This document shows, one piece after another, positions 2,637 to 63,351 of a DNA stretch of 64,000 bases. The notes beneath the pieces were generated by a model. It searched no databases, was not told the DNA's origin, and was given only the letters and a program-made list of their open reading frames with translations. This DNA is from Dokdonia pacifica. Lineage in GTDB: Bacteria > Bacteroidota > Bacteroidia > Flavobacteriales > Flavobacteriaceae. Each line of letters starts with the position of its first letter. Position 1 is the first letter of the stretch. A program made the position numbers and the translations under genes. Location: contig NZ_FZNY01000009.1 of the NCBI RefSeq assembly GCF_900188275.1, positions 1-64,000 on the forward strand, read 5' to 3'.

Positions 2637-3282
2637 GTTAAATAGTTTTCTTTTCATGACAAGTAATTTTTTTAATAGTAGTTTTTAAAAATTTATTTGA
2701 TTAAACATTGGTAATTGTATGGCGTTTACATTAGTAGTCTAATTTTTTTGATGAATGACTACCTAATGATCATAGCATATCATTAGGCAGTCAATTTCAA
2801 ATCAACAAATCAACTTAGCTAACGCAAACACTAACTATCTTTAAAGCGTAATTTGATTTAAAGGAATTATAGGTTTCTTATTTTCCTTACGATCAATATG
2901 GCGGCTTTTAATTTTCATTTTGAATTTCTTTTCGTTTCTTTTTCTGATGCAAATAAACTATGAGAAAGCACCTTATTACAAGTAAAGATGTGTGATGTGG
3001 AAAAAATAGCTTTAAAAAGGAATTCTTTTAAGCCTTGATATACCTAGGCTTACAAAGGATTAGTGTAAAACCTTATGGAAAAAGTCAGGTTATACGAGCA
3101 GATACGCTTATTCTTCAATAATGTTATAATGAAACTGTATTATGATAGTATACGCTTTCGCGAAAGCGTATATATGCTATTTACTATTTAAAAGTGAGTG
3201 ATTAACTATAAACTACTTTTTAGAATATTTTAAAATAGGAATAGAGCAAAGAAAAAATAGGTATTACAAACTATGTACAAAC
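2637..3282. other. Long intergenic region, no gene seen
   Basis: About 650 bases of AT-rich DNA between the repeat-protein start and the terminator of the next minus-strand gene. It should hold the promoter of the repeat protein, but I could not find a convincing TTG/TAnnTTTG pair. The only clear structure is the palindrome at 3149-3172. I see no supported small ORF. Confidence 0.6.
3149..3172. repeat. GCTTTCGCGAAAGC palindrome (perfect, 24 bp)
   Basis: The 20-mer TACGCTTTCGCGAAAGCGTA is flanked by TA on each side, giving a perfect 24-bp palindrome in a non-coding region. It is not followed by a T-run, so it does not look like a terminator. This is the longest perfect copy of the family in the window. 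Confidence 0.95.
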
Positions 3283-3312
3283 AAAAAAGGGATACAAAAT
3301 AAATTGTATCCC
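3283..3312 (-). terminator. Rho-independent terminator
   Basis: A 9-bp inverted repeat GGGATACAA / TTGTATCCC with a 6-base loop. On the minus strand it is followed by TTTTTT. It lies just after the stop of the beta-barrel gene ending at 3340. Confidence 0.85.
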
Positions 3313-3339
3313 ATCTAAAGAATGTAGTTTTATGTATGT

Positions 3340-4263
3340 CTATAATTGAATAAAATAGGTGGCATGAAATCCAAAGTGAAGATTACCATCTCTAAAGTTG
3401 AAATTGTTTTCTGTTTTGATGATGAATTTATCTTCTACAAGATTTCTTGCATTTGTCAGTTTGAATTGTAATAATAAATCTGAGACTTCCCAATTTGCTC
3501 CTAAACTAAATGGGCCGTATGTATCTACAAAGTCTACGGGATTTGCTACATAATAATACTCTGACACAATAGAAACATGATTACTTACTTTATATCTTGC
3601 TCCAAAACCTAATGCAAAATGATTAGGATTTGCACCATCTACAAGCTCATCTTCTGCTCTGTAAACATATGTAGGTGCGATTTGAAATGAGAAATTTCTA
3701 GTAAATTTTCTTGCAATTAATAATTGTGTAGTGGCTGCAAATTTATTTTTTGATGGTACTTCCCTCATCATAGTAGGATCATCTATATCATATAATACTC
3801 CTTTAAAAGAAGATTTATTTCTATAAACACCACCTTGGAAAAGAGTGATACTAAATGGAAATTTAGACCCTGAGTCTCTTTGATAAAACAAGCGATATTT
3901 TGCATATGCATCTATAGATCTGTATCCTGTACCATAACCTACTCCAGTAGTTAAGCGATCTGAAATTCCGTAATCTACTCCTATTCTACTATTCCATTTA
4001 TCGGCTGCAAATGTTTGTACACGTTCTGAATCTGGGATAGGTCTATTCCAAAAACGATTCATCGAAGATATTTCTAAAACTCCTTTTTTACGGGTTTCTA
4101 CTGAGTGTCCTATAGAGATATGTGTTCCTTTAAAAGTAGCAATTGTAGGTTGAGATTCTTCTACAGATGCAGCTTCTAAATCCTTTAAAATATCTTGTGC
4201 ATGTATCATATTGACCATGCTCAAAAACAACAGTGTATACAGAAATTTACTTTTGATTTTCAT
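3340..4263 (-). CDS. DUF5777-like outer-membrane beta-barrel protein
   Basis: The frame is open from 4362, but the ATG at 4263 gives a clean signal peptide (MKIKSKFLYTLLFLSM...HAQ), so I prefer that start, giving 307 residues. It overlaps the end of the YceI gene by 17 bases, which suggests translational coupling. The mature protein is rich in alternating aromatic/polar strands (GFGARYKV, SIVSEYYYVANP, FGFHATYF) and ends in an aromatic-rich strand, as expected of an outer-membrane barrel. It resembles the Bacteroidetes DUF5777 barrel family. It is the last gene of a three-gene operon with an OB-fold protein and a YceI protein. Function is unknown; a lipid, haem or redox link is only suggested by the YceI neighbour. 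ATG 4272 is an alternative start. Confidence 0.72.
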   Translation of the reverse strand: MKIKSKFLYTLLFLSMVNMIHAQDILKDLEAASVEESQPTIATFKGTHISIGHSVETRKKGVLEISSMNRFWNRPIPDSERVQTFAADKWNSRIGVDYGISDRLTTGVGYGTGYRSIDAYAKYRLFYQRDSGSKFPFSITLFQGGVYRNKSSFKGVLYDIDDPTMMREVPSKNKFAATTQLLIARKFTRNFSFQIAPTYVYRAEDELVDGANPNHFALGFGARYKVSNHVSIVSEYYYVANPVDFVDTYGPFSLGANWEVSDLLLQFKLTNARNLVEDKFIIKTENNFNFRDGNLHFGFHATYFIQL

Positions 4264-4798
4264 TAGGTGCATATTGAAATTTAAAAGATACTTGAATATT
4301 TTTTGCAATATTAGGAGATAGTATTGGAGGTACTTTGATTTCATAATCTTTAATAGGTACATCTATTGTCCCAGTAATACTATAGATTCCATCTGTATTA
4401 ACTATGGTAGCTTTAACTTCTACAGGTTTTGTAATACCTCTTAAGGTAAACTCTCCTTTTATAATCCTAGTTTGTGATCCTTCCTGGTTTGGGTCAAAAT
4501 CAATAATATCTCCTTCAAAAGTAGCTTTAGGATATAAATCTGATTCTATATAACTTTCATTAAAGTGCTCATACATTAGTGATTTTTCAAATGCAAAAGC
4601 ACGCATCAAAATTTGCACACCCACTTTCTTATTGGTCGTATATAAAATACTCAACACCTGATTATTGGTGGCTTGTATATTTTCTACAGACGTATATGAA
4701 AAGAATGTAATTTCTCCCTGTCTTGTAATGTGCTGGTCTTGGGCATTTACAAAACCTATCCCATAAATTGCAAAAAATAATAGTAGTAATTTATTCAT
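4247..4798 (-). CDS. YceI family periplasmic protein
   Basis: 183 residues with a signal peptide (MNKLLLLFFAIYGIGFVNAQ). The body fits the YceI lipocalin-like barrel: 'ITFFSYTSVENI', 'MYEHFNESYIESDLYPKATF' (the YceI pattern of a residue exported with matched subtle strands), 'GEFTLRGITKPVEV' and the final strand 'IQVSFKFQY'. YceI proteins bind polyisoprenoid or other long lipids in the periplasm. Its start overlaps the stop of the OB-fold gene by 8 bases and its end overlaps the barrel gene, so the three are very likely one transcript. Confidence 0.85.
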   Translation of the reverse strand: MNKLLLLFFAIYGIGFVNAQDQHITRQGEITFFSYTSVENIQATNNQVLSILYTTNKKVGVQILMRAFAFEKSLMYEHFNESYIESDLYPKATFEGDIIDFDPNQEGSQTRIIKGEFTLRGITKPVEVKATIVNTDGIYSITGTIDVPIKDYEIKVPPILSPNIAKNIQVSFKFQYAPNENQK

Positions 4799-5225
4799 TG
4801 ACTTCTTCTATGACGATACAATTTAATAAAATTGCATCCATTAAAAAACCTTTAAGTATTCCTTTTACCATTACCTCATCTCCTATTTTGAGTGATTCGA
4901 CTATTGGGGCTTGATCTACTTGCATTTCACATAATACAAGTTGGTCTATTTGATTCCCTCTTAAGAGTAGTGAGTATTTATTATTCTTATAGGTAATTTG
5001 ATATAATGTTCCTTTTATTTCAAGTGCTTTCTCTATGTATTGTTCAAAAGAAGCTTCTTTTTCGTTATTAAAGTTTTTAAATAACTCATTTGTTGTGATA
5101 CTCATTTCAGTTTTTGCTTCTCTAGTATCGATACCTTCATAATTAAAAACAGCATATAATCCTATCACTGCTGCAATGCAGACAATAATGAATAGACTTA
5201 TTTTAATATATGAATTACTTTTCAA
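4791..5225 (-). CDS. Membrane-anchored OB-fold (tRNA_anti-like) protein
   Basis: 144 residues: a short N-terminal membrane segment (residues ~9-28, ISLFIIVCIAAVIGLYAVF), then a domain from ~45 with the OB-fold layout 'EIKGTLYQITYKNNKYSLLL' ... 'LKIGDEVMVKGILKGFLMDAILLNCIVIE'. This matches the tRNA_anti-like periplasmic OB-fold proteins of Bacteroidetes. First gene of the operon with YceI and the beta-barrel. The minus strand has TACATTTG at 5305-5298, an exact -7 box match, but no good -33 TTG at the usual spacing, so the promoter is uncertain. The biochemical role is unknown; an anchored periplasmic or cytoplasmic-face OB domain is what can be seen. Confidence 0.75.
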   Translation of the reverse strand: MKSNSYIKISLFIIVCIAAVIGLYAVFNYEGIDTREAKTEMSITTNELFKNFNNEKEASFEQYIEKALEIKGTLYQITYKNNKYSLLLRGNQIDQLVLCEMQVDQAPIVESLKIGDEVMVKGILKGFLMDAILLNCIVIEEVNE

Positions 5226-5456
5226 GCTTTTGTTTTTTTTAAAAAGTTGTTTTCTTTAATAAGAAACCAACAGAAACTAAAATCATTATTTCCACCACAA
5301 ATGTAACGCACCTTAACTAGTATTGCCCTATTTAAAAGGTGCAAAATAGCTCAAACGGAATTTTTATCATTAAAAAGGAATCTCAAAACTTTAAAAAACA
5401 GCTTCATCTACAGCAATGTATTATTTTAGCTATATGTTAATTAATACTCTTTTTGA

Positions 5457-6605: not shown

Positions 6606-6650
6606 ATATCTAATGCTTCGGCATTCATTTTATTTGATGATGTACATACA

Positions 6651-6670
6651 TACGCTTTCGCGAAAGCGTA
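6651..6670. repeat. GCTTTCGCGAAAGC palindrome (perfect, intergenic)
   Basis: Perfect 20-mer TACGCTTTCGCGAAAGCGTA, extended by one matching A/T pair to 6650-6671, between the LytTR gene and ppgK. No T-run follows. Confidence 0.95.
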
Positions 6671-6812
6671 TACTTTACACTTCCAAAAAAGCACACATAA
6701 TCAACTAGCAATAAACAAATTAATAAATATATTTATTGAAAACCTCTCGATCTTTTATTCATATTATTGAAATTAGTTATCTTCGGCAGGTTGACAAAAA
6801 GTTACGAACTCT

Positions 6813-7556: not shown

Positions 7557-7581
7557 AAAACTGATCAATTTCTTGATCAGT
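7553..7581 (-). terminator. Bidirectional terminator between ppgK and folD
   Basis: ACTGATCAA / TTGATCAGT with a 4-base loop (7560-7581). On the minus strand it is followed by a run of T interrupted once, which serves folD. On the plus strand the downstream T content is weaker, so ppgK termination is less certain. Confidence 0.8.
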
Positions 7582-7626
7582 CTTATACTATTTCTTATAA
7601 CTCTTATAGAGTAGTAATATAATTCG

Positions 7627-8514: not shown

Positions 8515-8573
8515 ATTTAAGGTATTTAGTTAAGAGGTTACTATTAAAAACTGCTTACTGGAAGTGTATAAAT

Positions 8574-9905
8574 TTACTTCTGCATTCTACTCATAGCCTG
8601 CATCATCTTACGGCCTCCACCACCTTGCATCATCTTCATCATCTTACTCATTTGATTGAATTGCTTCAGTAATTGATTTACCTGTTGTACAGAAGTACCA
8701 GATCCTTTTCCTATTCGTTTTTTACGACTAGAATTAATTACAGAAGGATTTGTACGTTCTGCAGGAGTCATAGAATGAATAATTGCTTCTATGTGTTTAA
8801 AGGCATCATCATCAATATCTACTCCTTTAAGCATTTTTCCAGCACCAGGTATCATCCCCATTAGGTCTTTCATATTACCCATTTTCTTCACCTGCTGAAT
8901 TTGCTTTAAGAAATCATCAAACCCAAATTGGTTTTTAGCAATTTTCTTTTGAAGTTTACGTGCTTCTTCTTCATCAAACTGCTCTTGTGCTCTCTCTACA
9001 AGAGAAACAACATCTCCCATCCCTAAGATACGATCTGCCATACGAGAAGGATAGAATACATCTATCGCTTCCATTTTTTCTCCAGTACCTATAAACTTGA
9101 TAGGCTTATCTACTACAGATTTAATAGAGATAGCAGCTCCACCACGTGTATCACCATCTAATTTTGTTAAGATAACACCATCAAAATTCAGAATATCATT
9201 AAAGGCTTTTGCAGTATTTACTGCATCTTGCCCTGTCATAGAATCTACAACAAATAATGTTTCTTGAGGTTGGATTGCTTTATGGATATTTGCAATCTCG
9301 TCCATCATTTCAGTATCTACTGCAAGACGACCCGCCGTATCGACAATTACTACATTATGTCCGTTTGCTTTCGCGAAAGCAATACCTGCTTCTGCAATAG
9401 CCACAGGATCTTGGTTACCTCTATCGGAAAACACATCTACTTTGATTGCGTCTCCAACTACGTGTAACTGATCTATCGCCGCTGGACGATACACATCACA
9501 AGCAACCAATAATGGTTTTTTTGTTTTCTTAGTTTTAAGGAAGTTTGCTAGTTTACCTGAAAATGTTGTTTTACCAGAACCCTGAAGTCCAGACATTAAA
9601 ATAACACTAGGATTTCCAGAAAGATTTACTCCAGAAGCATCACCTCCCATTAACTCAGTAAGCTCATCTTTTACAATCTTAACCATAAGCTGGCCAGGTT
9701 GTAATGTTGTAAGTACATTTTGACCTAGTGCCTTTTCTTTTACTCTATTGGTAAAATCTTTAGCAATTTTAAAGTTTACATCGGCATCTATAAGTGCGCG
9801 ACGCACTTCCTTAAGTGTCTCTGCAACATTTACTTCTGTAATACTCCCGTGTCCTTTAAGTACGTGGAGCGCTTTATCTAACTTATCACTTAAATTATCA
9901 AACAT
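8574..9905 (-). CDS. ffh: Signal recognition particle protein Ffh (SRP54)
   Basis: 443 residues with the NG GTPase domain (P-loop GLQGSGKTT, VDTAGRL, TKLDGD) and a Met-rich M domain from ~300 that ends 'MQGGGGRKMMQAMSRMQK'. It binds 4.5S RNA and signal peptides to target nascent membrane proteins to FtsY. The palindrome GCTTTCGCGAAAGC sits inside the gene (9367-9380) and encodes AFAK in 'GIAFAKANGHNV', just before the DTAGR motif. Other Ffh proteins have a similar helix there, so the palindrome fits the protein without an obvious insertion. Confidence 0.97.
   Translation of the reverse strand: MFDNLSDKLDKALHVLKGHGSITEVNVAETLKEVRRALIDADVNFKIAKDFTNRVKEKALGQNVLTTLQPGQLMVKIVKDELTELMGGDASGVNLSGNPSVILMSGLQGSGKTTFSGKLANFLKTKKTKKPLLVACDVYRPAAIDQLHVVGDAIKVDVFSDRGNQDPVAIAEAGIAFAKANGHNVVIVDTAGRLAVDTEMMDEIANIHKAIQPQETLFVVDSMTGQDAVNTAKAFNDILNFDGVILTKLDGDTRGGAAISIKSVVDKPIKFIGTGEKMEAIDVFYPSRMADRILGMGDVVSLVERAQEQFDEEEARKLQKKIAKNQFGFDDFLKQIQQVKKMGNMKDLMGMIPGAGKMLKGVDIDDDAFKHIEAIIHSMTPAERTNPSVINSSRKKRIGKGSGTSVQQVNQLLKQFNQMSKMMKMMQGGGGRKMMQAMSRMQK
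9367..9380. repeat. GCTTTCGCGAAAGC palindrome inside ffh
   Basis: Perfect 14-mer core, read as Ala-Phe-Ala-Lys in the ffh frame. The outer CG/TA extension is missing here. Confidence 0.95.
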
Positions 9906-10039
9906 ATCTTACTACTGAAAAATTGAATTTCGATATTTAATTATCGAGGTTGCAAATTTAATGATTTGAAGCATATATACATAGTGGTACCCCAAGGTAT
10001 TCTACTATTATAGCCATAAAATCTTATACACAAGCAAAT

Positions 10040-11270: not shown

Positions 11271-11288
11271 GCTTTCGCGAAAGCGTAC
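11271..11288. repeat. GCTTTCGCGAAAGC palindrome (intergenic)
   Basis: Perfect 14-mer core at 11271-11284, followed by GTAC, with a near-match ATAT on the left side. It lies 56 bases upstream of the lipoprotein start. Confidence 0.93.
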
Positions 11289-21109: not shown

Positions 21110-21196
21110 TACGCTTTCGCGAAATCGAACTTCTGAGACCTGCCTGCCGGCAGGTAGGTTCACAACTAATAGGAAGAGCAAAGCGGCAAAGCGTAT
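21110..21196. repeat. Composite repeat bounded by palindrome halves (87 bp)
   Basis: Begins TACGCTTTCGCGAAATCGA and ends with AAGCGGCAAAGCGTATA, so its tips are inverted. The middle has an inner palindrome of CCTGCC/GGCAGG type. It is a diverged relative of the elements at 47840 and 63287. Confidence 0.8.
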
Positions 21197-23404: not shown

Positions 23405-23407
23405 CCT

Positions 23408-25592: not shown

Positions 25593-25612
25593 TACGCTTT
25601 CGCGAAAGCGTA
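25593..25612. repeat. GCTTTCGCGAAAGC palindrome (perfect, intergenic)
   Basis: Perfect 20-mer TACGCTTTCGCGAAAGCGTA, 68 bases after the 39-bp repeat and about 80 bases before the DUF6638-like gene. Confidence 0.95.
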
Positions 25613-28503: not shown

Positions 28504-28517
28504 GCTTTCGCGAAAGC
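28504..28517. repeat. GCTTTCGCGAAAGC palindrome (intergenic)
   Basis: Perfect 14-mer, 12 bases before the TTG start of the next lipoprotein gene, so it may be in its 5' leader. Confidence 0.93.
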
Positions 28518-34707: not shown

Positions 34708-37239
34708 ATGCGTACTATCACTTTTGTATTTGCACTTCTTTTTTGTTCGCTTTGCGCGAAAATAAACGCCCAAGGAATCACAATCAAGCCCAAAAAACCA
34801 GATGCTTCTGCCATTTTTGAAGATATCAAAAAGCTAAATTTTTTAGGCTCTGTTTTATATGTAGCGGCACATCCTGATGATGAAAACACAACTGCAATTT
34901 CTTATTTTGCAAATACTGTAAAAGCACGCACAGCCTATCTATCACTTACAAGAGGTGATGGAGGACAAAATATTATAGGTCCAGAACTACGCGAACTATT
35001 AGGTGTGATTCGTACACAAGAGCTCCTTGCCGCTCGCGCAACCGATGGTGGAGAGCAACGATTTACAAGAGCTAATGATTTTGGCTATTCAAAACATCCC
35101 GATGAGACACTTGCCATCTGGAATAAAGATGAAGTACTAAGTGATGTTGTTTGGGCGATGCGTACCTTCAAACCAGACGTAATTATCAATCGTTTTGATC
35201 ACAGGTCACCGGGATCTACTCATGGTCATCATACATCAAGTGCAATGTTGAGTGTAGAAGCTTTTGATTTAGTGAATGATCCAACAAAATATGCAGATCA
35301 ATTACAATACACAGAAGTATGGCAGCCAAAACGCCAGTTCTTCAATACAAGTTGGTGGTTTTATGGAAGTAGGGACGCTTTCGCGAAAGCGGATAAATCC
35401 AACCTCGTAAAAGTAGATGTAGGTACGTATTACCCAGGATACGGACTTTCTAATACAGAGATTTCTTCCTTAAGTCGTAGTCAACATAAATCTCAAGGAT
35501 TTGGAAATACGGGTAGCCGCGGAAGCAGTGACACTTATTTTGAATTGTTACGTGGAGAAATGCCTACAAATAATGATGTATTTCAAGGCATAGATACTTC
35601 ATGGGGACGTGTAGAAGGAAGTAGTAAAGTTGCTTCTTTACTCGCCCAAGTCGAGTCTAACTTTGATCACGCCCATCCAGAAAAAAGTATTCCTCAACTA
35701 GCACAAGCTTATGCAGAACTCCAGAAATTAGAAGACCAACACTGGAAAACTATTAAAAGCAAGGAGATACAAGATTTAATCGCCGCATGTTCTGGATTGT
35801 ATTTAGAAGCTGTTGCCAATACACAAACTGCAACAACAGGAGAAGAAGTTTCCTTAAGACTCGAAGCTATTAATAGAAGTGATGTAGCTATGAAAATACA
35901 AAGCATTGGGGTACCTTCTAAAAAAAGTAATCTTATTGGAGAAGATCTTACAAATAATAAACGTTACATAGGTGAGGAAAAAATAACCATCTCTAATGAG
36001 TTTGCATCTACCAATGCCTATTGGTTAGAAAACTCTGGTACATTAGGAATGTATCGCGTAGATGATCGTAGACTTATAGGAAAACCTGAAACCCCTAGAA
36101 CAAACGTAGTTACTTTTGAAATAAATATTGATGGTGTCATTTTTAAATTTGACAAACCAATTGTTTATAAATACAATGATCGTGTAAAAGGAGAAGTATA
36201 TGAGCCCTTTGAGATTGTTCCTGAAGCTTCAGCAGGTATAAAAGATAAAGTGCTTATTTTTGCTAATGCTGATGCAAAACAAATTCCAGTAACAGTAACT
36301 GCTCACAAAGATGCATTATCTGGAACCGTGCGACTTGATATTCCGAAAGGATGGAATGTGTCTCCCAAAAGTGCACCGATAAATATCTCTAAAAAAGGAG
36401 AACAACAAATCATTGACTTTACAGTAACACCTCCTTCAAATCAAAATGAGGGCATCATCGTGCCAAAAGTAACTGTTGGAAATACAACCTATGATAAAGA
36501 ATTAGTAAAAATAGATTATAGTCATATCCCTTTACAATCGTTATTCCTTCCCGCACAGGCAAAAGTAGTACGATTAGATATAGAACGTAGAGGAGATTAC
36601 ATAGGATACATACAAGGAGCTGGAGATGCTGTTCCGCAAAATTTAGAGCAAATAGGGTATCAAGTGGCTGTTATTACACCTGAAGAAATCACAAAAGAAA
36701 GACTTGCTCAATTCGACGCAGTTGTGGTAGGAATACGTGCTTATAATGTTGTAGAAGCATTACAGAGTAAACAACCTACCCTTCTAGAATATGTAAAAGA
36801 AGGAGGAACATTGATTGCGCAATATAATACAAGCGGTCGATGGGGAAATACAAAAATAGGAGCCCCCTACCCTATGAAGCTTTCTCGTGATCGCGTAACA
36901 GACGAATATAGTGAGGTGAAAATAGTAGCAAAAGATCATCCGCTCATGAACTTCCCTAATAAAATTACTCAAAAGGATTTTGAAGGTTGGACACAAGAAC
37001 GAGGACTTTATTTCCCTAATGAATGGTCTGATGAATATACACCTATATTATCTATGCAAGACAAAGGTGAAGATCCAAAAAAAGGAAGCTTACTTGTTGC
37101 TCCATATGGAGAAGGTCATTACATCTACACTGGACTCAGTTTCTTTAGAGAACTACCTGCTGGGGTTTCTGGAGCATATCGCCTTTTTTCAAACATGCTC
37201 TCCATAGGAAAAGAAAAACCTAAAAAAGTAAAAGGATAA
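34708..37239 (+). CDS. Secreted PIG-L family deacetylase with C-terminal ThuA/GATase-like domain
   Basis: 843 residues from ATG 34708 (signal peptide MRTITFVFALLFCSLCAKIN, then AQ). The PIG-L domain comes first: zinc motif 'AAHPDDE' (residues ~52-58) and 'DHRSPGSTHGHHTSS' (~163-177), as in N-acetylglucosamine deacetylases. A middle beta domain follows, and a C-terminal glutamine-amidotransferase/ThuA-like domain ('DAVVVGIRAYN', 'EGGTLIAQYNTSGRW'). It is likely periplasmic and acts on an amino sugar. The palindrome core at 35376-35391 encodes AFAKA in 'SRDAFAKADK'. The small membrane gene and the SSS symporter follow closely, so it may be part of an uptake unit. Confidence 0.88.
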   Translation: MRTITFVFALLFCSLCAKINAQGITIKPKKPDASAIFEDIKKLNFLGSVLYVAAHPDDENTTAISYFANTVKARTAYLSLTRGDGGQNIIGPELRELLGVIRTQELLAARATDGGEQRFTRANDFGYSKHPDETLAIWNKDEVLSDVVWAMRTFKPDVIINRFDHRSPGSTHGHHTSSAMLSVEAFDLVNDPTKYADQLQYTEVWQPKRQFFNTSWWFYGSRDAFAKADKSNLVKVDVGTYYPGYGLSNTEISSLSRSQHKSQGFGNTGSRGSSDTYFELLRGEMPTNNDVFQGIDTSWGRVEGSSKVASLLAQVESNFDHAHPEKSIPQLAQAYAELQKLEDQHWKTIKSKEIQDLIAACSGLYLEAVANTQTATTGEEVSLRLEAINRSDVAMKIQSIGVPSKKSNLIGEDLTNNKRYIGEEKITISNEFASTNAYWLENSGTLGMYRVDDRRLIGKPETPRTNVVTFEINIDGVIFKFDKPIVYKYNDRVKGEVYEPFEIVPEASAGIKDKVLIFANADAKQIPVTVTAHKDALSGTVRLDIPKGWNVSPKSAPINISKKGEQQIIDFTVTPPSNQNEGIIVPKVTVGNTTYDKELVKIDYSHIPLQSLFLPAQAKVVRLDIERRGDYIGYIQGAGDAVPQNLEQIGYQVAVITPEEITKERLAQFDAVVVGIRAYNVVEALQSKQPTLLEYVKEGGTLIAQYNTSGRWGNTKIGAPYPMKLSRDRVTDEYSEVKIVAKDHPLMNFPNKITQKDFEGWTQERGLYFPNEWSDEYTPILSMQDKGEDPKKGSLLVAPYGEGHYIYTGLSFFRELPAGVSGAYRLFSNMLSIGKEKPKKVKG
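35376..35391. repeat. CGCTTTCGCGAAAGCG palindrome inside the PIG-L gene
   Basis: Perfect 16-mer read as Ala-Phe-Ala-Lys-Ala on the plus strand, in a loop-like part of the deacetylase domain. Confidence 0.95.
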
Positions 37240-41265: not shown

Positions 41266-42243
41266 ATGCATAACACTCATTGGGCTATTTTAGGATGTGG
41301 CCATATCGCTCATAAATTTGCAGAAGACCTTATAGCAACGCAAGGAGCTACACTCTATGCCGTAGGAAGTCGCAGTTTAGAAAAAGCAGAAAATTTCAAA
41401 CAGCAACACCAAGCACATAAAGCCTATGCATCCTACGAAGCGCTTGTTAAAGATCCAAAAGTAGCCATCGTATATATTGCCACACCTCATGTATTTCATA
41501 AAGAGGTGACGCTACTTTGCCTAGCACATGGCAAAGCCGTTTTGTGTGAAAAACCTTTTGCTATGAATCACAAGGAGGTTAAGTATATGATCGCTTTCGC
41601 GAAAGCGAAACAAACCTTCTTAATGGAAGCCTTATGGACTTATTTCCTACCGCATTATCAATATGTATTACAAATGGTGCACTCTAAAGAATTAGGAGCT
41701 ATTAAAAGTTTAAAAGCAGATTTTGGTATTAATGTACCTAAAGATCCATCTCATCGATTATACAACAAAAATTTAGGAGGTGGTAGTTTATTAGATGTAG
41801 GTATCTATCCTGTATTTGCGGCTATGACCCTATTAGGAAATCCAGATAAAATTGAAGCCAAAGCTACGTTAGACACCAACGGAATAGACCTCAACTGCGA
41901 TATGGAACTCACCTATCCTAATCAAGTAAAAGCGCACTTATTCTCTGCTATCGATACAAAAACAGATACCACGTGTCTTATCGAATTAGAAAAGGGCACC
42001 ATATGCATTAACAGTCGTTTCCACGATCCAGCTGGCATATCTATTACGATTAGCAAAAATGGCGATACAAAAACCATTAATTTCCCAGGAAGTGTTCATG
42101 GGTATCATTATGAAATTTTACACTGTCAAGAAATGCTTGCACAAGGTAAGATAGAAAGCGATATCATGACTTTTGAAAAAAGCATACAATTAATCACACT
42201 ATTAGATACTATACGTAAAGAAATTGGTTTGGTATATGAATAA
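41266..42243 (+). CDS. Gfo/Idh/MocA oxidoreductase
   Basis: 325 residues. N-terminal NAD(P) Rossmann domain ('AILGCGHIAHKFAEDL') with the family motif 'CEKPFAMN' (~95-102), then the C-terminal alpha/beta domain ('GGGSLLDVGIYP', 'SAIDTKTDTTC'). These enzymes oxidise sugars, inositols or dihydrodiols. The palindrome core at 41592-41607 encodes AFAKA in 'MIAFAKAKQTF'. It is single, with its own upstream gap; a second member of the family lies at 45331. Confidence 0.92.
   Translation: MHNTHWAILGCGHIAHKFAEDLIATQGATLYAVGSRSLEKAENFKQQHQAHKAYASYEALVKDPKVAIVYIATPHVFHKEVTLLCLAHGKAVLCEKPFAMNHKEVKYMIAFAKAKQTFLMEALWTYFLPHYQYVLQMVHSKELGAIKSLKADFGINVPKDPSHRLYNKNLGGGSLLDVGIYPVFAAMTLLGNPDKIEAKATLDTNGIDLNCDMELTYPNQVKAHLFSAIDTKTDTTCLIELEKGTICINSRFHDPAGISITISKNGDTKTINFPGSVHGYHYEILHCQEMLAQGKIESDIMTFEKSIQLITLLDTIRKEIGLVYE
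41592..41607. repeat. CGCTTTCGCGAAAGCG palindrome inside an oxidoreductase gene
   Basis: Perfect 16-mer, read as Ala-Phe-Ala-Lys-Ala, at the end of a helix before the substrate-binding domain. Confidence 0.95.
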
Positions 42244-45330: not shown

Positions 45331-46443
45331 ATGGATAGAAGAACCTTTAATACCAAACTATCAAAAGCAGTAGGAGGTGTTGCTTTACTAAGTAACATTC
45401 CACTAGCATGTGCTTTCGAGTCCTCAGAAAACAAAAAAAGCTTAGGCGTTGCTTTAGTGGGCTTAGGTATCTATAGTACCTATGAACTAGCGCCTTCCCT
45501 ATTAGAAACCAAACATTGCCATCTCGCGGGTATCGTTACAGGTACTCCCGAAAAAGAAAATATTTGGGCAGAAAAATATAAGATTCCAAAAGAAAACATA
45601 TACAATTATGACAACTTTGATACGATCATAAACAATGATAGTATTGACATTGTATATGTAGTATTACCCAATGCCATGCATGCCGATTTTTGTATCAGAG
45701 CAGCAAAAGCAGGAAAACATGTAATCTGTGAAAAACCAATGGCAGTAAGCGTTGCCGAATGTCAAGCTATTATTGACGCTTGCGCGAAAGCTAACGTTAA
45801 ACTAAGTGTTGGGTATAGATTGCATTCCGAACCACATACGCAAGAAATACAACGTATTGTTAAAGAAAAGGAATTTGGTAAGATTAATTTTATCACTACA
45901 GAAGCTGGATATCCATCGTATGGAAATCCAGATCCTGACCAATGGCGCTTGAATAAAGCATTGTCTGGCGGTGGTGCACTAATGAATATGGGTGTATATG
46001 CTATTCAAGGAGCCATTTATGGTACAGGCGAAAATCCCATATCAGTCACGGCACAAGAATTTAGCACAAAACCTAGCTATTTTAAAGATACAGACGAGAC
46101 TATTACGGCACAGTTTGAGTTTCCAAGTGGCGCTGTAGGTTCTATATTCACTTCTCATAATGCCAAAGCAGATCGTTTATATGCTTCTTGTGATAAAGGA
46201 TGGTTTGAATTGGATATTGCCTATACCTATGGTCCGCTACATGGCCGTACATCTAAAGGAAATGAAATCACATTTCCGCACAAAAGACAACAAGCCCTGC
46301 AAATGGATGACTTTGCATTACATATTACACAAGGACTTCCAAACAAAGTCCCTGGTAGTATGGGATTAAGAGATCTTAAAATTGTAGAAGCTATTTACCA
46401 ATCTATCAAAGAAGGAGGTAAAAAAATAGCATTGAATTTATAA
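45331..46443 (+). CDS. Exported Gfo/Idh/MocA oxidoreductase
   Basis: 370 residues. The N-terminus 'DRRTFNTKLSKAVGG' followed by hydrophobic residues is Tat-like, so it is probably exported folded with its bound NADP, as in glucose-fructose oxidoreductase. The Rossmann motif is 'LGVALVGLGIYSTYE' and the family motif 'CEKPMAVS'. The C-terminal domain has 'GGGALMNMGVYAIQGA'. A near-perfect palindrome copy (GACGCTTGCGCGAAAGC, 45777-45791) encodes 'DACAKA' here. Sugar oxidation is likely; the substrate is not known. Confidence 0.88.
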   Translation: MDRRTFNTKLSKAVGGVALLSNIPLACAFESSENKKSLGVALVGLGIYSTYELAPSLLETKHCHLAGIVTGTPEKENIWAEKYKIPKENIYNYDNFDTIINNDSIDIVYVVLPNAMHADFCIRAAKAGKHVICEKPMAVSVAECQAIIDACAKANVKLSVGYRLHSEPHTQEIQRIVKEKEFGKINFITTEAGYPSYGNPDPDQWRLNKALSGGGALMNMGVYAIQGAIYGTGENPISVTAQEFSTKPSYFKDTDETITAQFEFPSGAVGSIFTSHNAKADRLYASCDKGWFELDIAYTYGPLHGRTSKGNEITFPHKRQQALQMDDFALHITQGLPNKVPGSMGLRDLKIVEAIYQSIKEGGKKIALNL

Positions 46444-47736: not shown

Positions 47737-47756
47737 TACGCTTTCGCGAAAGCGTA
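47737..47756. repeat. GCTTTCGCGAAAGC palindrome (perfect, intergenic)
   Basis: Perfect 20-mer TACGCTTTCGCGAAAGCGTA, 10 bases after the SDR stop, before the composite element at 47840. Confidence 0.95.
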
Positions 47757-47839: not shown

Positions 47840-47897
47840 TACGAAATCGAGCTTGCGAGATTCACGACCAAAGGGAGAGCGAAGCGATAAAGCATAC
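47840..47897. repeat. Composite dispersed repeat (inverse of 63287-63351)
   Basis: Carries AAATCGAGCTTGCGAGATTC and the following ACGACCAAAGGGAGAGCGAA, GCGATAAAGCATA. Its reverse complement is nearly the element at 63287-63351. Just upstream (47808-47828) lies CACTGAGCTTGTCGAAGTG, a common imperfect-palindrome repeat. Confidence 0.9.
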
Positions 47898-47962: not shown

Positions 47963-49270
47963 ATGAAAAAAGTAACCATCTTCTGGTTTAGACGTGATTT
48001 ACGATTGAATGATAATATAGGGCTATTCAATGCCTTACAATCCGAATTTCCAGTACTTCCTATCTTTATTTTTGATAAGAATATTCTTGACAAATTACCA
48101 AAAGATGATCCTCGAGTGACATTCATTTTTGAGACACTCCAACAGTTACGTAAACAACTTCAAGAACAACATCAAAGCGCGATAGCATTCTATTATGACT
48201 CACCTGAAGCTGTGTTTGAAAAACTATCTACAACCTATGAGGTACAAGGGGTTTATACAAATCATGATTACGAGCCTTATGCACGAGAAAGAGATGAGGC
48301 CATAAAGGGTTTGCTTTCGCGAAAGCGTATACCGTTTCACACCTATAAAGATCAAGTCATTTTTGAAAAAGATGAAATCGTAAAAAATGATGGTCTCCCC
48401 TATGTCGTATACACACCCTATAAGAATAAATGGAAAGAACGTTTTAACCCCGAAATTGATTTAAAAGAATACAATACTACTGCATATCTAGGAAACCTTA
48501 TACAGAATCAAGATCTTCCTGATCTTACCCTAGAAACTATGGGTTTTAAAGAAGCAACTATAAAAGTACCATCATACACAGTGACGGATACGCTCATCGA
48601 AAATTATGAAGCTACTCGTAATTTTCCAGCAAAGGAAAATGGAACTTCCCGATTAGGACCACATCTTCGTTTTGGTACGGTGAGTACACGCCAAATGGTC
48701 AAAAAAGCCATTGCACAAGAGAATGAGGTTTTCTGGAGCGAACTCATATGGCGAGAGTTTTTTATGCAGATTCTGTGGCATTTTCCGCATACCAAAGACA
48801 AGGCTTTTAAACCCAAATACGATCGTATCGAATGGCGGAATAATGAAGCAGAGTTTAAAAAATGGTGTGATGGACAGACGGGATATGCCTTTGTAGATGC
48901 CGGAATGCGAGAACTGAACACCACAGGTTTTATGCATAATCGTGTTCGTATGCTAGTGGCAAGTTTTTTATGTAAACACCTGCTTATCGACTGGCGATGG
49001 GGAGAAACCTACTTTGCAGAGAAGTTATTAGATTATGATATGAGTGCCAATGTTGGAAACTGGCAATGGGCAGCGGGTTCTGGGGTAGATGCAGCACCCT
49101 ATTTTAGAATCTTTAATCCTATCACGCAAATTGATAAGTTTGACAAACAAAAGGAATATATCAATACCTGGGTTCCAGAATTACAAGAACTTACCTACCC
49201 TCCTATGATAGTAGATCATAAAATGGCACGCGAGCGTTGCTTGAAAGTATATAAAGAGGCTGTGGGGTAA
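47963..49270 (+). CDS. phrB: Deoxyribodipyrimidine photolyase / cryptochrome
   Basis: 435 residues, class I photolyase length. N-terminal antenna domain 'VTIFWFRRDLRLNDNIGLFNAL' (split by a strand) and C-terminal FAD domain with 'TSRLGPHLRFGTVSTR', 'WREFFMQILWHFP', 'DWRWGETYFAEKLLDYDMSA', 'NWQWAAGSGVDAAPYFRIFNP'. It repairs UV cyclobutane dimers with blue light, or is a signalling cryptochrome; both share this layout. The palindrome core at 48313-48326 is read here in a different frame (LSRKR in 'GLLSRKRIPF'). Confidence 0.95.
   Translation: MKKVTIFWFRRDLRLNDNIGLFNALQSEFPVLPIFIFDKNILDKLPKDDPRVTFIFETLQQLRKQLQEQHQSAIAFYYDSPEAVFEKLSTTYEVQGVYTNHDYEPYARERDEAIKGLLSRKRIPFHTYKDQVIFEKDEIVKNDGLPYVVYTPYKNKWKERFNPEIDLKEYNTTAYLGNLIQNQDLPDLTLETMGFKEATIKVPSYTVTDTLIENYEATRNFPAKENGTSRLGPHLRFGTVSTRQMVKKAIAQENEVFWSELIWREFFMQILWHFPHTKDKAFKPKYDRIEWRNNEAEFKKWCDGQTGYAFVDAGMRELNTTGFMHNRVRMLVASFLCKHLLIDWRWGETYFAEKLLDYDMSANVGNWQWAAGSGVDAAPYFRIFNPITQIDKFDKQKEYINTWVPELQELTYPPMIVDHKMARERCLKVYKEAVG
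48313..48326. repeat. GCTTTCGCGAAAGC palindrome inside the photolyase gene
   Basis: Perfect 14-mer. It is the only in-gene copy read as Leu-Ser-Arg-Lys-Arg instead of Ala-Phe-Ala-Lys-Ala. Confidence 0.95.
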
Positions 49271-55230: not shown

Positions 55231-56955
55231 ATGAAAAGAAAATTATATTCTCTGGCGGCAATTATTTTGGTGTCCGCTTTCGCGAAAGCGCAAGTAACCT
55301 TTACGGATGCTACCAATCTTCTTGAAAACCAAACGCTTTCTAGTGGCGTTGCCATGGCTGTGGTTGATATGAATAATGATAGACTTGATGATATTATTAG
55401 ATTAGACAACGGTATCAATCTTCAAATAGAATACCAACAACCTGATGGAAGTTTTAATCGATTACAGATTGGAAATGTGGCAAGTCCATGGGGAATCTCT
55501 ATTGCCGATGTAGACGAAAATGGTTTTAATGATATTATTGTTGGTGGCTCCTATGATGGATTACGTCTTCTTACCGCAAATGATGATGGTACAGACTTCT
55601 CATTAACTACGCTTGGAGGTCCAGCTATTTTTGTGCAAAACACCAATTTTGCAGATATTAATAACGATGGGGCTATTGATTATTTTGCATGTCATGATGA
55701 TGGTATTTCTTCTCCCTATGAAAATGATGGAAGTGGCGATTTTACCTATAATCTTGATTTGATTAATGCAGTAACCGCAGGTGATTCTGACAATTCAGGA
55801 AATTATGGTTCTATATGGACAGATTATGATAATGATGGCGATTTAGATGTATTTATTTCTAAATGTAGATTACAAGCAGCAGGAAATCCTGATGACCCAC
55901 GTCGTTTAAATTTATTATATCAAAATGATGGATCAAACAACTTTACAGAAGTTGCTGAAGAAGCTGGTTTACGTCCTAGAAGACAAACGTGGTCTACAAA
56001 TTTTGAAGATATTGATAATGATGGTGATCTTGATGCAGTGATGGTTAATCATGGTCTGAGTAGTCAGATTTATGAAAATAATGGAGATGGTACCTTTACA
56101 GATATTACAGCAAGTTCTGGTGTATCTGCTCAGCTTAGCGCATTAGGACTTGGTATTCAAGTGATGATGGAAGACTTTAACAATGATACATTTATTGATA
56201 TATTCTTAACCTCTACAGATCAAAATCATCTCCTACTATTAAATGACGGAGACAAAACCTTTACGTCAGTTTCTAATGCATTTTCAGACAGTAATGACGA
56301 GATTCAAAGTGCCGCTGTGGGTGATCTTAATAACGATGGATTTATAGATGTAGTTACTGGGTATGCTAGTGGTTTCAATAACCCATCTAATACGGATGAT
56401 CAACTCTTTCTAAACGACGGAAATGATAATAACTGGATTAAAATAGCATTACAAGGTGATGAAAGTAATAGTAACGGAATTGGAGCCCGTATAGAAATAG
56501 AAGGAAGTTGGGGATCACAAATACGTGAAGTACGTGCTGGTGAAAGCTACGGAACTCAAAACTCATTGATTACACACTTTGGATTGGGTGCTGCTACAGA
56601 TATTGAAACAATTACGATAACATGGCCATCTGGAATAGAAGATATTATTGAAGATATAGATAGCAATATCACGATTACTATTGCAGAAGGAGAAGGTCTA
56701 TTAGGACTTGAAGATGTTGTGAATACTTCAGGTGTTTCCAGTATCTTCCCAAATCCAGCTACAACACAAATTAACTTTACAACCACTTCTGAGATACAAG
56801 AAAATACAATTTATGTATATGACTTATTAGGAAGACAAGTGATTGCACAATCCATGCAAACCGTAGGTACACAAACAATAAATGTATCTAGTCTAAATTC
56901 AGGTGTATACTTTGTTTCTATTGGGAATTCGGTTCAAAAATTTATTAAAAAATAA
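55231..56955 (+). CDS. Secreted FG-GAP/VCBS-repeat protein with UnbV domain and T9SS tail
   Basis: 574 residues. Signal peptide 'MKRKLYSLAAIILVSAFAKA' ending at the cleavage site; the palindrome core at 55275-55290 encodes AFAKA exactly here. Then repeats of FG-GAP/VCBS type with calcium-loop-like motifs ('DYDNDGDLDVFIS', 'DLNNDGFIDVV', 'DIDNDGDLDAVM'). An ASPIC/UnbV region (~400-480) and a C-terminal type IX sorting domain ('SIFPNPATTQINF', 'VYDLLGRQVIAQ', 'GVYFVSI') follow. A secreted, Ca-binding propeller protein. The gene after it starts on the next base. Confidence 0.9.
   Translation: MKRKLYSLAAIILVSAFAKAQVTFTDATNLLENQTLSSGVAMAVVDMNNDRLDDIIRLDNGINLQIEYQQPDGSFNRLQIGNVASPWGISIADVDENGFNDIIVGGSYDGLRLLTANDDGTDFSLTTLGGPAIFVQNTNFADINNDGAIDYFACHDDGISSPYENDGSGDFTYNLDLINAVTAGDSDNSGNYGSIWTDYDNDGDLDVFISKCRLQAAGNPDDPRRLNLLYQNDGSNNFTEVAEEAGLRPRRQTWSTNFEDIDNDGDLDAVMVNHGLSSQIYENNGDGTFTDITASSGVSAQLSALGLGIQVMMEDFNNDTFIDIFLTSTDQNHLLLLNDGDKTFTSVSNAFSDSNDEIQSAAVGDLNNDGFIDVVTGYASGFNNPSNTDDQLFLNDGNDNNWIKIALQGDESNSNGIGARIEIEGSWGSQIREVRAGESYGTQNSLITHFGLGAATDIETITITWPSGIEDIIEDIDSNITITIAEGEGLLGLEDVVNTSGVSSIFPNPATTQINFTTTSEIQENTIYVYDLLGRQVIAQSMQTVGTQTINVSSLNSGVYFVSIGNSVQKFIKK
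55275..55290. repeat. CGCTTTCGCGAAAGCG palindrome at a signal-peptide cleavage site
   Basis: Perfect 16-mer read as Ala-Phe-Ala-Lys-Ala, with Gln-Val following. The Ala-x-Ala pattern provides the signal peptidase site. Confidence 0.95.
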
Positions 56956-57423: not shown

Positions 57424-57429
57424 TATTTT

Positions 57430-57930: not shown

Positions 57931-57948
57931 AACTGTTAAGGGTTTTCT
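57922..57948. terminator. Terminator carrying both stop codons of a convergent pair
   Basis: AACTCTTAA, AACTG loop, TTAAGGGTT, then TTTTC on the plus strand. The TAA of the 57430 gene is in the left arm and the TAA of the 57936 gene is in the right arm. Confidence 0.75.
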
Positions 57949-58337: not shown

Positions 58338-58397
58338 GATACGATGAACTCTTCATTAAATTAATTTACTTAGTACATTCAACAGATAACAACTAGT

Positions 58398-60149: not shown

Positions 60150-60246
60150 ATCTCGATTTTTAGATCAGGTAATTTACTAAATTATCCTTAGATCAAGAAT
60201 ATGCATGCTTATAAAAACTTAGATTCAATGCTATCTAAGCAGTCTT

Positions 60247-61884: not shown

Positions 61885-62129
61885 GCGCTTATTTTTAAGG
61901 GTGCAAAAATAAGTAAAAAGTGACTCTTTTCTCTTAGAGTATACTTAGAGTATAGTATTGTATTTCTTTTATAAAATAATATGATCTCAAAAATATAAAT
62001 ACCTAAAAATCAATGAATTCATATAGAAAAAAGGGACTTTTGCCTGTATTTTACTTCTAGAACTCAATGTAATTTTGACACATTCAATAGAATGACTATT
62101 GATAAATAACCAAAATAAATTTAATTCGT

Positions 62130-62684
62130 ATGAAAACCATCACATTAACCATTGTATTATTTCTTTCTTTTACTCTTGTAGGGAACTCTCAAAAAAGTAA
62201 TTCAAAAGCAGTCAATAAAACATTAAGTTTTATTCTTACAGATTATGCAAAACTCAACAAGGCAAAGCCACTTTCTTTAAAAGATTACCAAAGGTATTTA
62301 GCTAAAGAAAAATTAAATGCTAAAGGAATGAAAATTGAGAAAGTGGTTGCTATTAACTATCTAACCAAAAAGAATCAGAAAAACACTATCTATCTTATTA
62401 AAACAATAAAAGGAATCTCTTTTAGCGGACCTTCATGTAGCTTCAACGATGATCTATTCGGAGGAAGTTATGAAAATCAATGTGACACTTCTGGAGATGA
62501 AGGAGATTGCGAAGTAATTACAGATACCTGTAATTTAGACGGTTGCACAGTATACTGTGTTGTATCAAGTACTTGTGACGGAAGTAATGAGTCCTATCCA
62601 AATTGTTGCGATGGGCAAACATGTACTGACGGAGATGGCCTTATTGATGATTTGATGACCCCACTAGAAACCCTAATGGGATAA
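62130..62684 (+). CDS. Secreted Cys-rich protein
   Basis: 184 residues with signal peptide (MKTITLTIVLFLSFTLVGNS). A helical, Lys-rich N-terminal half ('NKAKPLSLKDYQRYLAKEKL') and a C-terminal half (~108-170) with ten Cys spaced as in disulphide-rich domains ('ENQCDTSGDEGDCEV', 'DTCNLDGCTVYCVV', 'NCCDGQTCTDGDG'). No family was recognised. It could be a small secreted peptide or metal binder. A terminator follows. Confidence 0.75.
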   Translation: MKTITLTIVLFLSFTLVGNSQKSNSKAVNKTLSFILTDYAKLNKAKPLSLKDYQRYLAKEKLNAKGMKIEKVVAINYLTKKNQKNTIYLIKTIKGISFSGPSCSFNDDLFGGSYENQCDTSGDEGDCEVITDTCNLDGCTVYCVVSSTCDGSNESYPNCCDGQTCTDGDGLIDDLMTPLETLMG

Positions 62685-62704
62685 TCTATAAAACTATAAT
62701 TATT

Positions 62705-62742
62705 AATGAGAAGTATATTTATATGCTTCTCATTAGTTTTTA
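62705..62742 (+). terminator. Rho-independent terminator of the Cys-rich gene
   Basis: AATGAGAAG and CTTCTCATT, with the inner ATA/TAT also pairing, followed by AGTTTTTATT. Confidence 0.85.
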
Positions 62743-63240
62743 TTCCCTTCCTAACCGATCTACTTCTTTCAATAAAGTAGGAAATCGAAACTCCCCATGC
62801 ATGTCTTGGATATAAGAAACCGCTTGTTGTAATGAAATTCCTTTAGCAGTAATGTATAATGGTTTTTTACTATCTCCTCTTTGTATAGGTATTTTTAAGG
62901 TATCAATCTTTGCAAAGTTATTTTTAGCAACACCTATTACAGGAATTTTCTGATCTAAGGCATCGTATAAATAGCCTCCAAGACCTAGCGCACCTTCATC
63001 ATCCAGCACTACAAATCCATCTACGACAATGATATCTATAAAGGTGAGATCAACTTGCTTTAAAAGACTTACAATGCAAGGAAGTTCTCTTTTATAAAAC
63101 TCACCTGATTCATACGGTTGAATATCCGAGAGAATTTCTGAATATACTTGATGCGGCACTTCATCTGTCCAATTTTCAAACTGTACAGCGACTGTTTTTG
63201 CTTTGTCATCAAAATAATGGGTATCAAAAGCAAGGATCAT
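62740..63240 (-). CDS. nfi: Endonuclease V
   Basis: 166 residues, shorter than the ~220 of E. coli Nfi, as many Bacteroidetes members are. It nicks DNA near deoxyinosine. The three acidic metal residues are visible: D6 in 'AFDTHYF', E52 in 'SGEFYKRELP' and D74 in 'IIVVDGFV'. 'GALGLGGYLYDAL' and 'PVIGVAKNNFA' also match. It is upstream-adjacent to a composite repeat and is on the same strand as pgl. Confidence 0.9.
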   Translation of the reverse strand: MILAFDTHYFDDKAKTVAVQFENWTDEVPHQVYSEILSDIQPYESGEFYKRELPCIVSLLKQVDLTFIDIIVVDGFVVLDDEGALGLGGYLYDALDQKIPVIGVAKNNFAKIDTLKIPIQRGDSKKPLYITAKGISLQQAVSYIQDMHGEFRFPTLLKEVDRLGRE

Positions 63241-63286
63241 GAGATTGTATTCTTTTATAATTATTTAAAAAAAGAAGATACTTTTA

Positions 63287-63351
63287 TACGCTTTATCGCT
63301 TCGCTCTCCCTCTGGTCGTGAATCTCGCAAGCTCGATTTCGCGAAAGCGTA
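63287..63351. repeat. Composite dispersed repeat (65 bp, palindrome-ended)
   Basis: Begins TACGCTTTATCGCTTCGCTC and ends TCGATTTCGCGAAAGCGTA. The middle CTCTGGTCGTGAATCTCGCA is the reverse complement of the element at 47840-47897. The end sequences are the two arms of the small palindrome. Confidence 0.93.

Follow-up and report, generated by a model that had tools for sequence, protein, structure and literature searches.

A dense palindrome family in Dokdonia and related Flavobacteriaceae looks like a genome-wide recognition tag

The neisserial uptake sequence DUS is described, in the portions of the account used here, as stringently conserved, with conversion-fragment-linked spacing and permissive core locations, and with many single copies diverged beyond point mutation (PMC2397512). 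A comparable extract on the Pasteurellaceae sequence USS attributes its relatively even distribution to drive (PMC7811141). In Riemerella, placed in the Flavobacteriaceae, parts of two reports indicate that transformation uses several genes without homologue in the known machinery, and that R. columbina favours its own DNA (PMC8459023, PMC7965970).

The palindrome family described here was found in a 64-kb stretch of Dokdonia pacifica DNA (the window), in which a sequence-only reading had reported a dense set of 14-24 bp palindromes. All 12 perfect GCTTTCGCGAAAGC 14-mers lie at the core positions that it gave, divided as it had claimed into six intergenic and six genic copies; the palindromes span the 14-24 bp announced, the longest, of 24 bp, at 3149-3172, and the presumed rarity by chance agrees with 0 occurrences in 100 dinucleotide shuffles. 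The perfect sites and one weaker site are:

3149..3172 (core 3154-3167), no strand: 24-bp perfect palindrome TATACGCTTTCGCGAAAGCGTATA, intergenic
6650..6671 (core 6654-6667), no strand: 22-bp palindrome, intergenic, 48 bp past a gene end
9365..9382 (core 9367-9380), no strand: 18-bp palindrome within ffh (SRP GTPase), reads AFAKA
11271..11284, no strand: 14-bp core, intergenic, 55 bp upstream of a start codon
16511..16526 (core 16512-16525), no strand: 16-bp palindrome within a CcsB-like gene (assignment below the NCBIfam cut-off), reads AFAKA
25593..25612 (core 25596-25609), no strand: 20-bp palindrome, intergenic
28504..28517, no strand: 14-bp core, intergenic
35376..35391 (core 35377-35390), no strand: 16-bp palindrome, genic, reads AFAKA; the gene matches mycothiol-conjugate-amidase (Mca) weakly, at a score below cut-off
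41591..41608 (core 41593-41606), no strand: 18-bp palindrome within an oxidoreductase-like gene whose match to inositol-2-dehydrogenase is below cut-off, reads AFAKA
45778..45791, no strand: one-mismatch weaker site between the 41593 and 47740 sites
47737..47756 (core 47740-47753), no strand: 20-bp palindrome, intergenic, 13 bp past a gene end
48313..48326, no strand: 14-bp core within a photolyase-like gene, reads LSRK
55275..55290 (core 55276-55289), no strand: 16-bp palindrome at codon 15 of a gene whose protein has a T9SS sorting domain, reads AFAKA

When up to two mismatches are allowed, the window contains 19 sites versus 0.14 expected. Of the eight weaker relatives proposed earlier, three have one mismatch (21113, 45778 and 63335) and three have two (19519, 25396 and 29368), whereas 34750 and 44733 are poorer matches that fall outside the two-mismatch list. 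The genome-wide count suggested by the same reading gave 903 copies of GCTTTCGCGAAAGC in the 5.52-Mb Dokdonia genome and 0 of the reversed-pattern control, so that the word is neither at chance level nor confined to the window. Dense genomes, with 408-903 copies each and an average density of one site per 4.2-7.8 kb, number five among 299 sampled family genomes and span three genera. The motif was not found in 70 comparable loci of other genera; in these 70 non-Dokdonia loci a 12-14 bp palindrome is repeated only in L039 (AT-rich, twice), a 10-bp palindrome occurs at least three times in eight, and a palindrome signal in L105 proved to be an artefact from a run of N. AFAKA is the commonest reading of copies inside genes (21 of 41 such copies in Dokdonia, 36 of 56 in the other-genus genome G190). 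Literature searches returned string matches only in relation to C. elegans promoters and Salmonella fimbriae, and nothing by topic in titles and the starts of abstracts, in a corpus that mostly leaves out subscription journals.

A symmetric, C-poor and G/T-rich flank reaches about 20 bp on either side of the 14-bp core, the 5' flank of each strand being G/T-rich and the flank motifs varying by genus ('dialects'). Mirrored flank positions display no covariation beyond composition, and an extended symmetric flank devoid of pair covariation is more in keeping with a protein that sits on double-stranded DNA than with an RNA hairpin. An RNA hairpin or terminator was rejected on this ground and because the listed contexts lack a consistent T-run; in an Rfam scan of the window, no family reached its gathering score. 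The inner words bear on a further reading, in which the palindrome arises through a DNA methyltransferase combined with a methylation-directed repair bias. The family does resemble HIP1 of cyanobacteria, as characterised in part of the source, in being short, perfectly palindromic, highly iterated and strictly confined to its lineages (PMC4390886), and the 8-bp TTCGCGAA occurs outside the 14-bp sites at 5.5 times expectation in Dokdonia and 5.2 times in G190. These outside occurrences carry the 10-bp core in 18 of 23 cases in Dokdonia and in 29 of 56 in G190; since this is only about half in G190, some excess is left there. Nevertheless, CGCG and TCGCGA are barely enriched outside sites (1.1- and 1.4-fold relative to expectation in Dokdonia, 0.8- and 1.2-fold in G190, 0.9- and 0.8-fold in g11), which led us to reject a HIP driven by a methylase whose target is 4-6 bp long and lends no support to that form of the restriction/modification role raised by the sequence-only reading; a target of 8 bp is conceivable. 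Recognition also spans 14 bp and flanks of about 20 bp, and a HIP1-type origin appears very unlikely.

Where sampled, the arrangement of the sites along the genome is even. In five data sets, which are samples of genomes, with one G206 region common to two of them, the gap CV is 0.43-0.67 versus 0.87-0.97 under the null, lying below it in all five (P from <0.0002 to 0.013). Long gaps are filled by weaker sites, which keep away from the strong ones (median 2982 versus 1144 bp for 18 such sites in Dokdonia, P 1e-4), and in five genomes no site has a neighbour within 30 bp. Such regularity, together with perfect dyad symmetry and extended symmetric flanks, would suit a nucleoid- or chromosome-organising anchor, in which a dimeric DNA-binding protein sits on evenly spaced sites; Noc, SlmA and MatP occupy such sites on a smaller scale. 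However, all of 21 sampled 20-kb stretches of G190 hold 1-6 sites (total 57, none empty). In addition, 56 of 64 G190 sites are genic, some phages and islands also carry sites, and ParB_N counts do not follow density (a single match in G206, G010, G242 and G190; two in G000 and in six non-dense genomes), so that no Noc-like paralogue tracks the motif. An architectural role is considered unlikely.

Comparison of Dokdonia sequences about 70-85% identical discloses many sites at orthologous positions, as sharp 14-bp footprints: 50 of 72 aligned site comparisons, with directions and pairs non-independent, are perfect versus 1.7-19% of background 14-mers. The 6654 site is kept in two further Dokdonia loci (L029 and L030), where the 11271 core is also retained despite diverging flanks; the ffh site (core 9367) is kept in L029, L030, G206 and G190 and degraded in L031. 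The CcsB-like gene has one such site in nine of ten other Dokdonia loci and none in L051, and the AFAKA of the 16512 site falls, in our reading, in a signal-peptide-like stretch. The 35377 site is missing, with ungapped alignment, in L033, L051, G206, G190 and G242, and the 48313 site is missing without alignment gap in G206, G190 and G242.

These alignments bear on a REP/MITE-like mobile palindrome tolerated within genes, an alternative that the earlier reading had entertained. Many copies lie shortly downstream of stop codons of tandem genes, a minority head a 60-80 bp repeat, and an alignment gap accompanies 7 of the 22 missing orthologues, as a mobile element would have it; the other 15 of these site-lacking Dokdonia partners align ungapped, positions are kept across species, and the copies are evenly spaced with none within 30 bp of another. 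The orthologue alignments thus reject a mobile repeat for most sites, and as an account of the family it is scarcely credible. The weak sites 21113 and 63335 are the heads of the longer repeat:

21113..21196, plus strand: one-mismatch site (21113-21126) opening the longer repeat, nhmmer match 21115-21196
47842..47897, plus strand: tail-repeat copy lacking a palindromic head; the 47740 site is about 90 bp away
63286..63348, minus strand: one-mismatch site (63335-63348) opening a tail repeat of about 60 bp, nhmmer match 63346-63286

The place orthologous to 21113 in G206 (L269:5817) has a plain palindrome, in L029 a palindrome adjoins a flank that matches the 21113 locus, and a few sites have acquired an internal insert.

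The sites also occur on viruses: 17 of 25 records, picked among pattern hits, hold 2-7 sites with a host-like flank, and one of these sites, where a portal-like gene begins, is conserved in three phages that are 66-68% identical in nucleotide sequence. Horizontally shared islands in other genera carry sites, many of them kept at 65-80% identity; a search for islands in the sampled dense-genome stretches gave no match of at least 300 bases. The rarity in recently acquired or mobile DNA expected of DUS/USS is thus not observed, and, as recently acquired genes are reported in the relevant passage to be without neisserial DUS (PMC2397512), the conserved sites on some phages argue against an uptake function. 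They fit a Chi-like mark by which the recombination or degradation machinery of the host would recognise DNA as 'self', so that every replicon, phages included, would gain from one site every few kb. A palindrome would serve such a machine in both directions, and the island sites, the even spacing at one per 4.2-7.8 kb and the G/T-rich 5' flank on each strand would agree with it. Known Chi motifs are, however, short, asymmetric and strand-biased; of the 299 genomes of the family, a single one has RecC (PF04257), and it is not among the dense genomes; and the length of the site, a 14-bp core plus flanks of 20 bp, suggests that it is bound as double-stranded DNA. Even granting that Chi is over-represented in E. 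coli phages without recombinases, as stated in the portion of that work used here (PMC3784561), a Chi-like mark seems doubtful.

About 900 copies, evenly spaced where sampled, positions kept in relatives and occurrence on viruses make the palindrome look like a genome-wide recognition tag, very probably one that acts at the DNA level and is bound double-stranded by a symmetric host protein. The protein-binding site suggested by the sequence-only reading is supported to this extent by the symmetric flanks without covariation, the sharp conserved footprints and the even spacing. More tentatively, the likeliest role of the tag, though at less than even confidence, is that of an uptake-sequence-like self mark accumulated through biased DNA uptake and recombination. 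Competent cells would favour the uptake of site-bearing fragments, possibly with a surface or periplasmic receptor as site reader; recombination would then copy the site into the recipient, and perfect copies would build up where genes tolerate sites, roughly one to each stretch of a few kb that recombines, being maintained by drive and not by selection. The ratio of perfect to one-mismatch copies in Dokdonia stretches (96 versus 12) speaks for uptake, as do the conserved positions, the even spacing, the flanks that differ by genus and the likeness to the pattern described for DUS and USS. On the other hand, the uptake sequences known to us are non-palindromic, and the motif here is a palindrome. 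The type IV pilus/T2SS ATPase PF00437 is above cut-off in only two of five dense genomes (G000 and G242) and in 4 of 21 others, so that the dense genomes do not have in common an uptake machine of the pilus type known from Neisseria and Haemophilus; ComEC, found in 5/5 of them and in 25/26 overall, is near-universal and does not track site density. No reader or receptor tracking the motif was found among the candidates checked (pilus ATPase, RecC, extra ParB). The comEC neighbours were considered as Riemerella surface uptake genes and rejected, Pfam assigning them to POT transporters, a DPP IV-type peptidase, a thioredoxin-like protein and HMG-CoA reductase.

A wider formulation, plausible at somewhat less than even confidence, is that of a dyad-symmetric double-strand genome-identity tag (a core of 14 bp, or about 54 bp when the flanks are counted), read by a putative clade-specific host protein and kept every ~4-8 kb on the chromosome, more sparsely on phages and islands. 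If so, the tag would link self-recognition to DNA uptake, recombination or degradation with no type IV pilus involved, and it would be, to our knowledge, the first such system in Bacteroidota. As an uptake tag, it would give marine flavobacteria their own gene-exchange self-recognition, built unlike that of Neisseria and Haemophilus, and would make the way Bacteroidota choose DNA testable with one 54-bp sequence; as a Chi-like or architectural mark, it would be a genome-wide signal that some phages also keep. Either way, the motif is a ready bait for its reader protein.

Compared with known systems, the motif shares with Noc/parS, SlmA and MatP sites the character of short, dimer-bound palindromes across the chromosome, but it has far more copies, shows no ori/ter pattern in a 13% sample of one genome (G190, terminus placed from GC skew only), occurs on phages and is tracked by no extra ParB. 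Its density is similar to that of Chi in E. coli. With Chi of RecBCD/AddAB it shares presence on phages, going by part of the source (PMC3784561); it differs in being dyad-symmetric, far longer and strongly position-conserved, in dense genomes without RecC. Like HIP1 (GCGATCGC) of cyanobacteria, as partly described, it is a highly iterated, lineage-limited perfect palindrome (PMC4390886), but with longer recognition including 20-bp flanks, unenriched 4-6 bp inner words and one copy per 4-8 kb. From neisserial DUS and Pasteurellaceae USS it departs in (i) being palindromic, (ii) belonging to Bacteroidota, (iii) occurring on some phages, and (iv) a pilus ATPase below cut-off or absent in 3/5 dense genomes. 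With both, as far as the extracts describe them, it has in common near-perfect copies that number in the hundreds, are conserved in position, lie in permissive locations and are evenly spaced, as well as a motif exceeding the core and genus dialects (PMC2397512, PMC7811141, PMC3630211).

The perfect 14-bp palindrome lies at all 12 window positions claimed by the sequence-only reading, shuffled sequences yielding none, and reaches 903 copies in the whole genome (G000; 5,520,745 bases, 31 contigs), in which the reversed word is found 0 times. At least one 14-mer occurs in 61 of 299 family genomes sampled, hundreds in only five, at a density of one site per 4.2-7.8 kb.

Copies of the 14-mer in the dense genomes
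G000 (g1, Dokdonia): 903
G206 (g1, Dokdonia): 857
G010 (g11): 578
G242 (g11): 664
G190 (g191): 408
Next-highest genomes: G287, 19; G051, 17; G076, 16; G144, 9

A phylum-wide sample contains the 14-mer in 22 of 395 genomes, with more than six copies only in the window's own genome. The best nine rows among relatives fetched with a window protein are Dokdonia, from 90% identity downward, followed by Leeuwenhoekiella; among 80 loci fetched via a CcsB-like protein, sites are present in 10/10 Dokdonia loci and in 0/70 others.

The 14-bp core is nearly invariant, with perfect and one-mismatch copies numbering 96 and 12 in Dokdonia, 64 and 19 in G190, and 25 and 3 in g11, respectively; the most frequent two-mismatch variant has lost the outer GC on one side. 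Outside the sites, CGCG and TCGCGA show hardly any enrichment, and the 8-bp TTCGCGAA is enriched 5.5-fold in Dokdonia and 5.2-fold in G190, 18/23 and 29/56 of these copies, respectively, being weak sites with the 10-bp inner core. A symmetric flank extends about 20 bp each way, C-poor and T/G-rich on the 5' side and weaker in G190, with preferences for T-3, A-2, and C-1 in Dokdonia and for T-10, T-4, T-3, and C-1 in g11. Mirrored flank positions agree about as frequently as composition predicts, which counts against a selected hairpin and supports a symmetric protein on double-stranded DNA. The evidence lends good support to the earlier suggestion of a protein-binding site, here taken as a tag on double-stranded DNA that a protein recognises. 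The dyad symmetry also fits the site of an architectural protein.

The four candidate readers searched for do not explain the motif pattern: (i) ComEC is present in 25/26 genomes, including all dense ones; (ii) ParB_N is present in 26/26, its extra copies not tracking the motif; (iii) the type IV pilus/T2SS ATPase is above cut-off in 6/26 genomes and 2/5 dense ones; and (iv) RecC is found in 1/299 genomes. At one comEC locus (L352:12509-15669), the adjoining POT-family transporters are 84-87% identical to those of G009, from another genus, whereas comEC itself is only 41% identical, likely reflecting horizontal replacement.

According to our own simple gene calls, intergenic sites account for 29/52 in G000, 26/44 in G206, and 14/25 in G242, against 11-16% of bases; more than half of the Dokdonia and g11 sites are intergenic, frequently 4-30 bp 3' of a stop codon. 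In G190 only 8/64 sites are intergenic, the same as the intergenic share of bases, and therefore this position is tolerated, not needed. The 41 genic Dokdonia sites encode the peptides AFAKA (21), LSRK (12), and FRES (8).

Gaps between sites are far more even than chance, with a CV in sampled stretches of 0.46 (G000), 0.67 (G190), 0.43 (G206), 0.51 (G242), and 0.50 (other Dokdonia loci) against null means of 0.87-0.97 (P <0.0002 to 0.013), and with two gaps below 1 kb observed versus about 36 expected; these five sets are partly dependent: L036, in the other-Dokdonia set, overlaps with one of the stretches from G206, and sites are shared among orthologous loci. None of the five dense genomes has a pair of sites 30 bp or less apart. 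Judged from their positions, the weak 10-bp-core sites behave like working sites, their distance to strong sites being large, 2982 versus 1144 bp in Dokdonia (median, n=18, P 1e-4) and 3530 versus 2282 bp in G190 (n=30, P 0.012).

The window sites at 6654, 9367, 11271, and 16512 are present at matching places in two related loci (L029 and L030), the 14 bp unchanged while the intergenic flanks diverged with indels, and the site in the CcsB-like gene is present in 9/10 other Dokdonia loci. Across eleven Dokdonia pairs the partner is perfect at 50/72 aligned sites, a tally of both directions with repeated, non-independent comparisons, versus 1.7-19% of all aligned 14-mers; the 22 misses comprise 15 ungapped and 7 gapped alignments. 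Shared orthologous positions and mostly ungapped misses argue, for most sites, against a mobile repeat, the other option initially proposed.

Cross-genus comparisons at aligned sites
G000 (window plus further stretches) to G190: 2/5 perfect, background 1.0%
G190 to G000 stretches: 2/3 perfect
G000 to G242: 0/4 perfect, background 1.4%
G242 to G010: 9/11 perfect, background 34.5%
G000 to G076: 0/1 perfect
G000 to G051: 0/1 perfect

The ffh site is common to the window and G190 at 71% identity; it may be convergent, because the local protein sequence favours AFAKA.

A dispersed repeat of 60-80 bp begins with half of the palindrome and regains the missing half at its end; it is sometimes tandem (e.g., L281:1781-1887). 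The window contains this repeat and one further repetitive element.

Repeats in the window
21113-21196, 47842-47897, and 63286-63348: dispersed repeat
1-1700: tandem array with TTGGTAGCAACTACG every 381 bp (13, 394, 775, 1156, 1537), probably a repetitive surface protein

Counting tandem units apart, dispersed-repeat matches number seven in G000 (324 kb scanned), two in G206 (193 kb), and four in G190 (500 kb), with none in other Dokdonia loci (125 kb) or in the sequence examined from g11, g77, sparse genomes, phages, and islands. The place orthologous to the window 21113 repeat is a plain palindrome in G206.

Sites in sparse genomes are frequently clustered, and ten such stretches from eight genomes were sampled (L016-L025): conserved palindrome clusters, largely in efflux-pump genes and including a 933-bp pair, within genera otherwise near motif-free. 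The ten site-bearing proteins comprise seven efflux types (RND pumps, outer-membrane efflux, HlyD, and P-type ATPases) and three others. L017, L019, and L020, from different genera, share 94-95% identity across some 8 kb, a sign of horizontal sharing; the clusters are a marker of gene flow, whose source may be the dense clade.

Island comparisons by identity, both directions counted (perfect sites; background 14-mers)
65-70%: 4/6; 0.7%
70-75%: 4/11; 2.6%
75-80%: 12/19; 5.2%
80-85%: 0/2; 14.7%
85-90%: 10/14; 22.3%
>90%: 12/12

In one island (L018), at the place matching L024:2894, the palindrome is split by an insert with GAGCGCAGTCGAAGGG, which we take to resemble a common flavobacterial dispersed repeat.

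A pattern scan of a viral collection matched at least 120 stretches, many being single matches in high-G+C contigs that may be due to chance. Twenty-five records, partly overlapping or near-identical, were examined whole, picked mainly for several matches or low G+C, with three higher-G+C single-match records (L109, L125, L134) as intended controls; 17 have 2-7 sites and eight have one, the L134 control having five. Over the 418,340 bases of the 17 multi-site records there are 56 sites, a density of one per 7.5 kb that falls to one per 10.7 kb after discounting one discovery site per record. Twelve phage proteins were scanned against PHROGs: matches include portal, major head, terminase, primase, and transposase, while several other proteins hit nothing but unknown-function families and one has no match. 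The site is kept in 12/13 phage alignments at 85-97% identity (background 53.5%) and in 10/21 below 85% (background 4.7%), the latter reducing to few places, chiefly one in a portal-like gene (codon 16), at which three phages of 66-68% identity retain the site. Site pairs spaced 4480 bp are common to phage records G685, G687, G688, G692, and G694, and pairs spaced about 8 kb to G680, G692, and G694.

This phage evidence is a better fit to a Chi-like mark of self (PMC3784561); because of this, and of the fit of dyad symmetry to an architectural protein, an uptake purpose for the tag is put forward tentatively, at somewhat under even chances, and the palindrome is not classed as an uptake-sequence member. 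In behaviour, uptake sequences are the closest precedent. For Riemerella, PMC8459023 and PMC7965970 report that R. anatipestifer transformation uses several genes without homologue in known machinery and that R. columbina favours its own DNA, AT-rich words being top among those listed in a search up to 10 bp. Published work describes (i) neisserial DUS as stringently conserved, in permissive sites, with a spacing that matches conversion fragments and with many single copies whose divergence is too great to result from point mutation (PMC2397512); (ii) dialects among Neisseriaceae uptake sequences (PMC3630211); and (iii) a relatively even spread in Haemophilus credited to drive (PMC7811141). 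To that extent, the palindrome resembles the neisserial and Haemophilus uptake sequences in conservation, spacing, and use of permissive sites.
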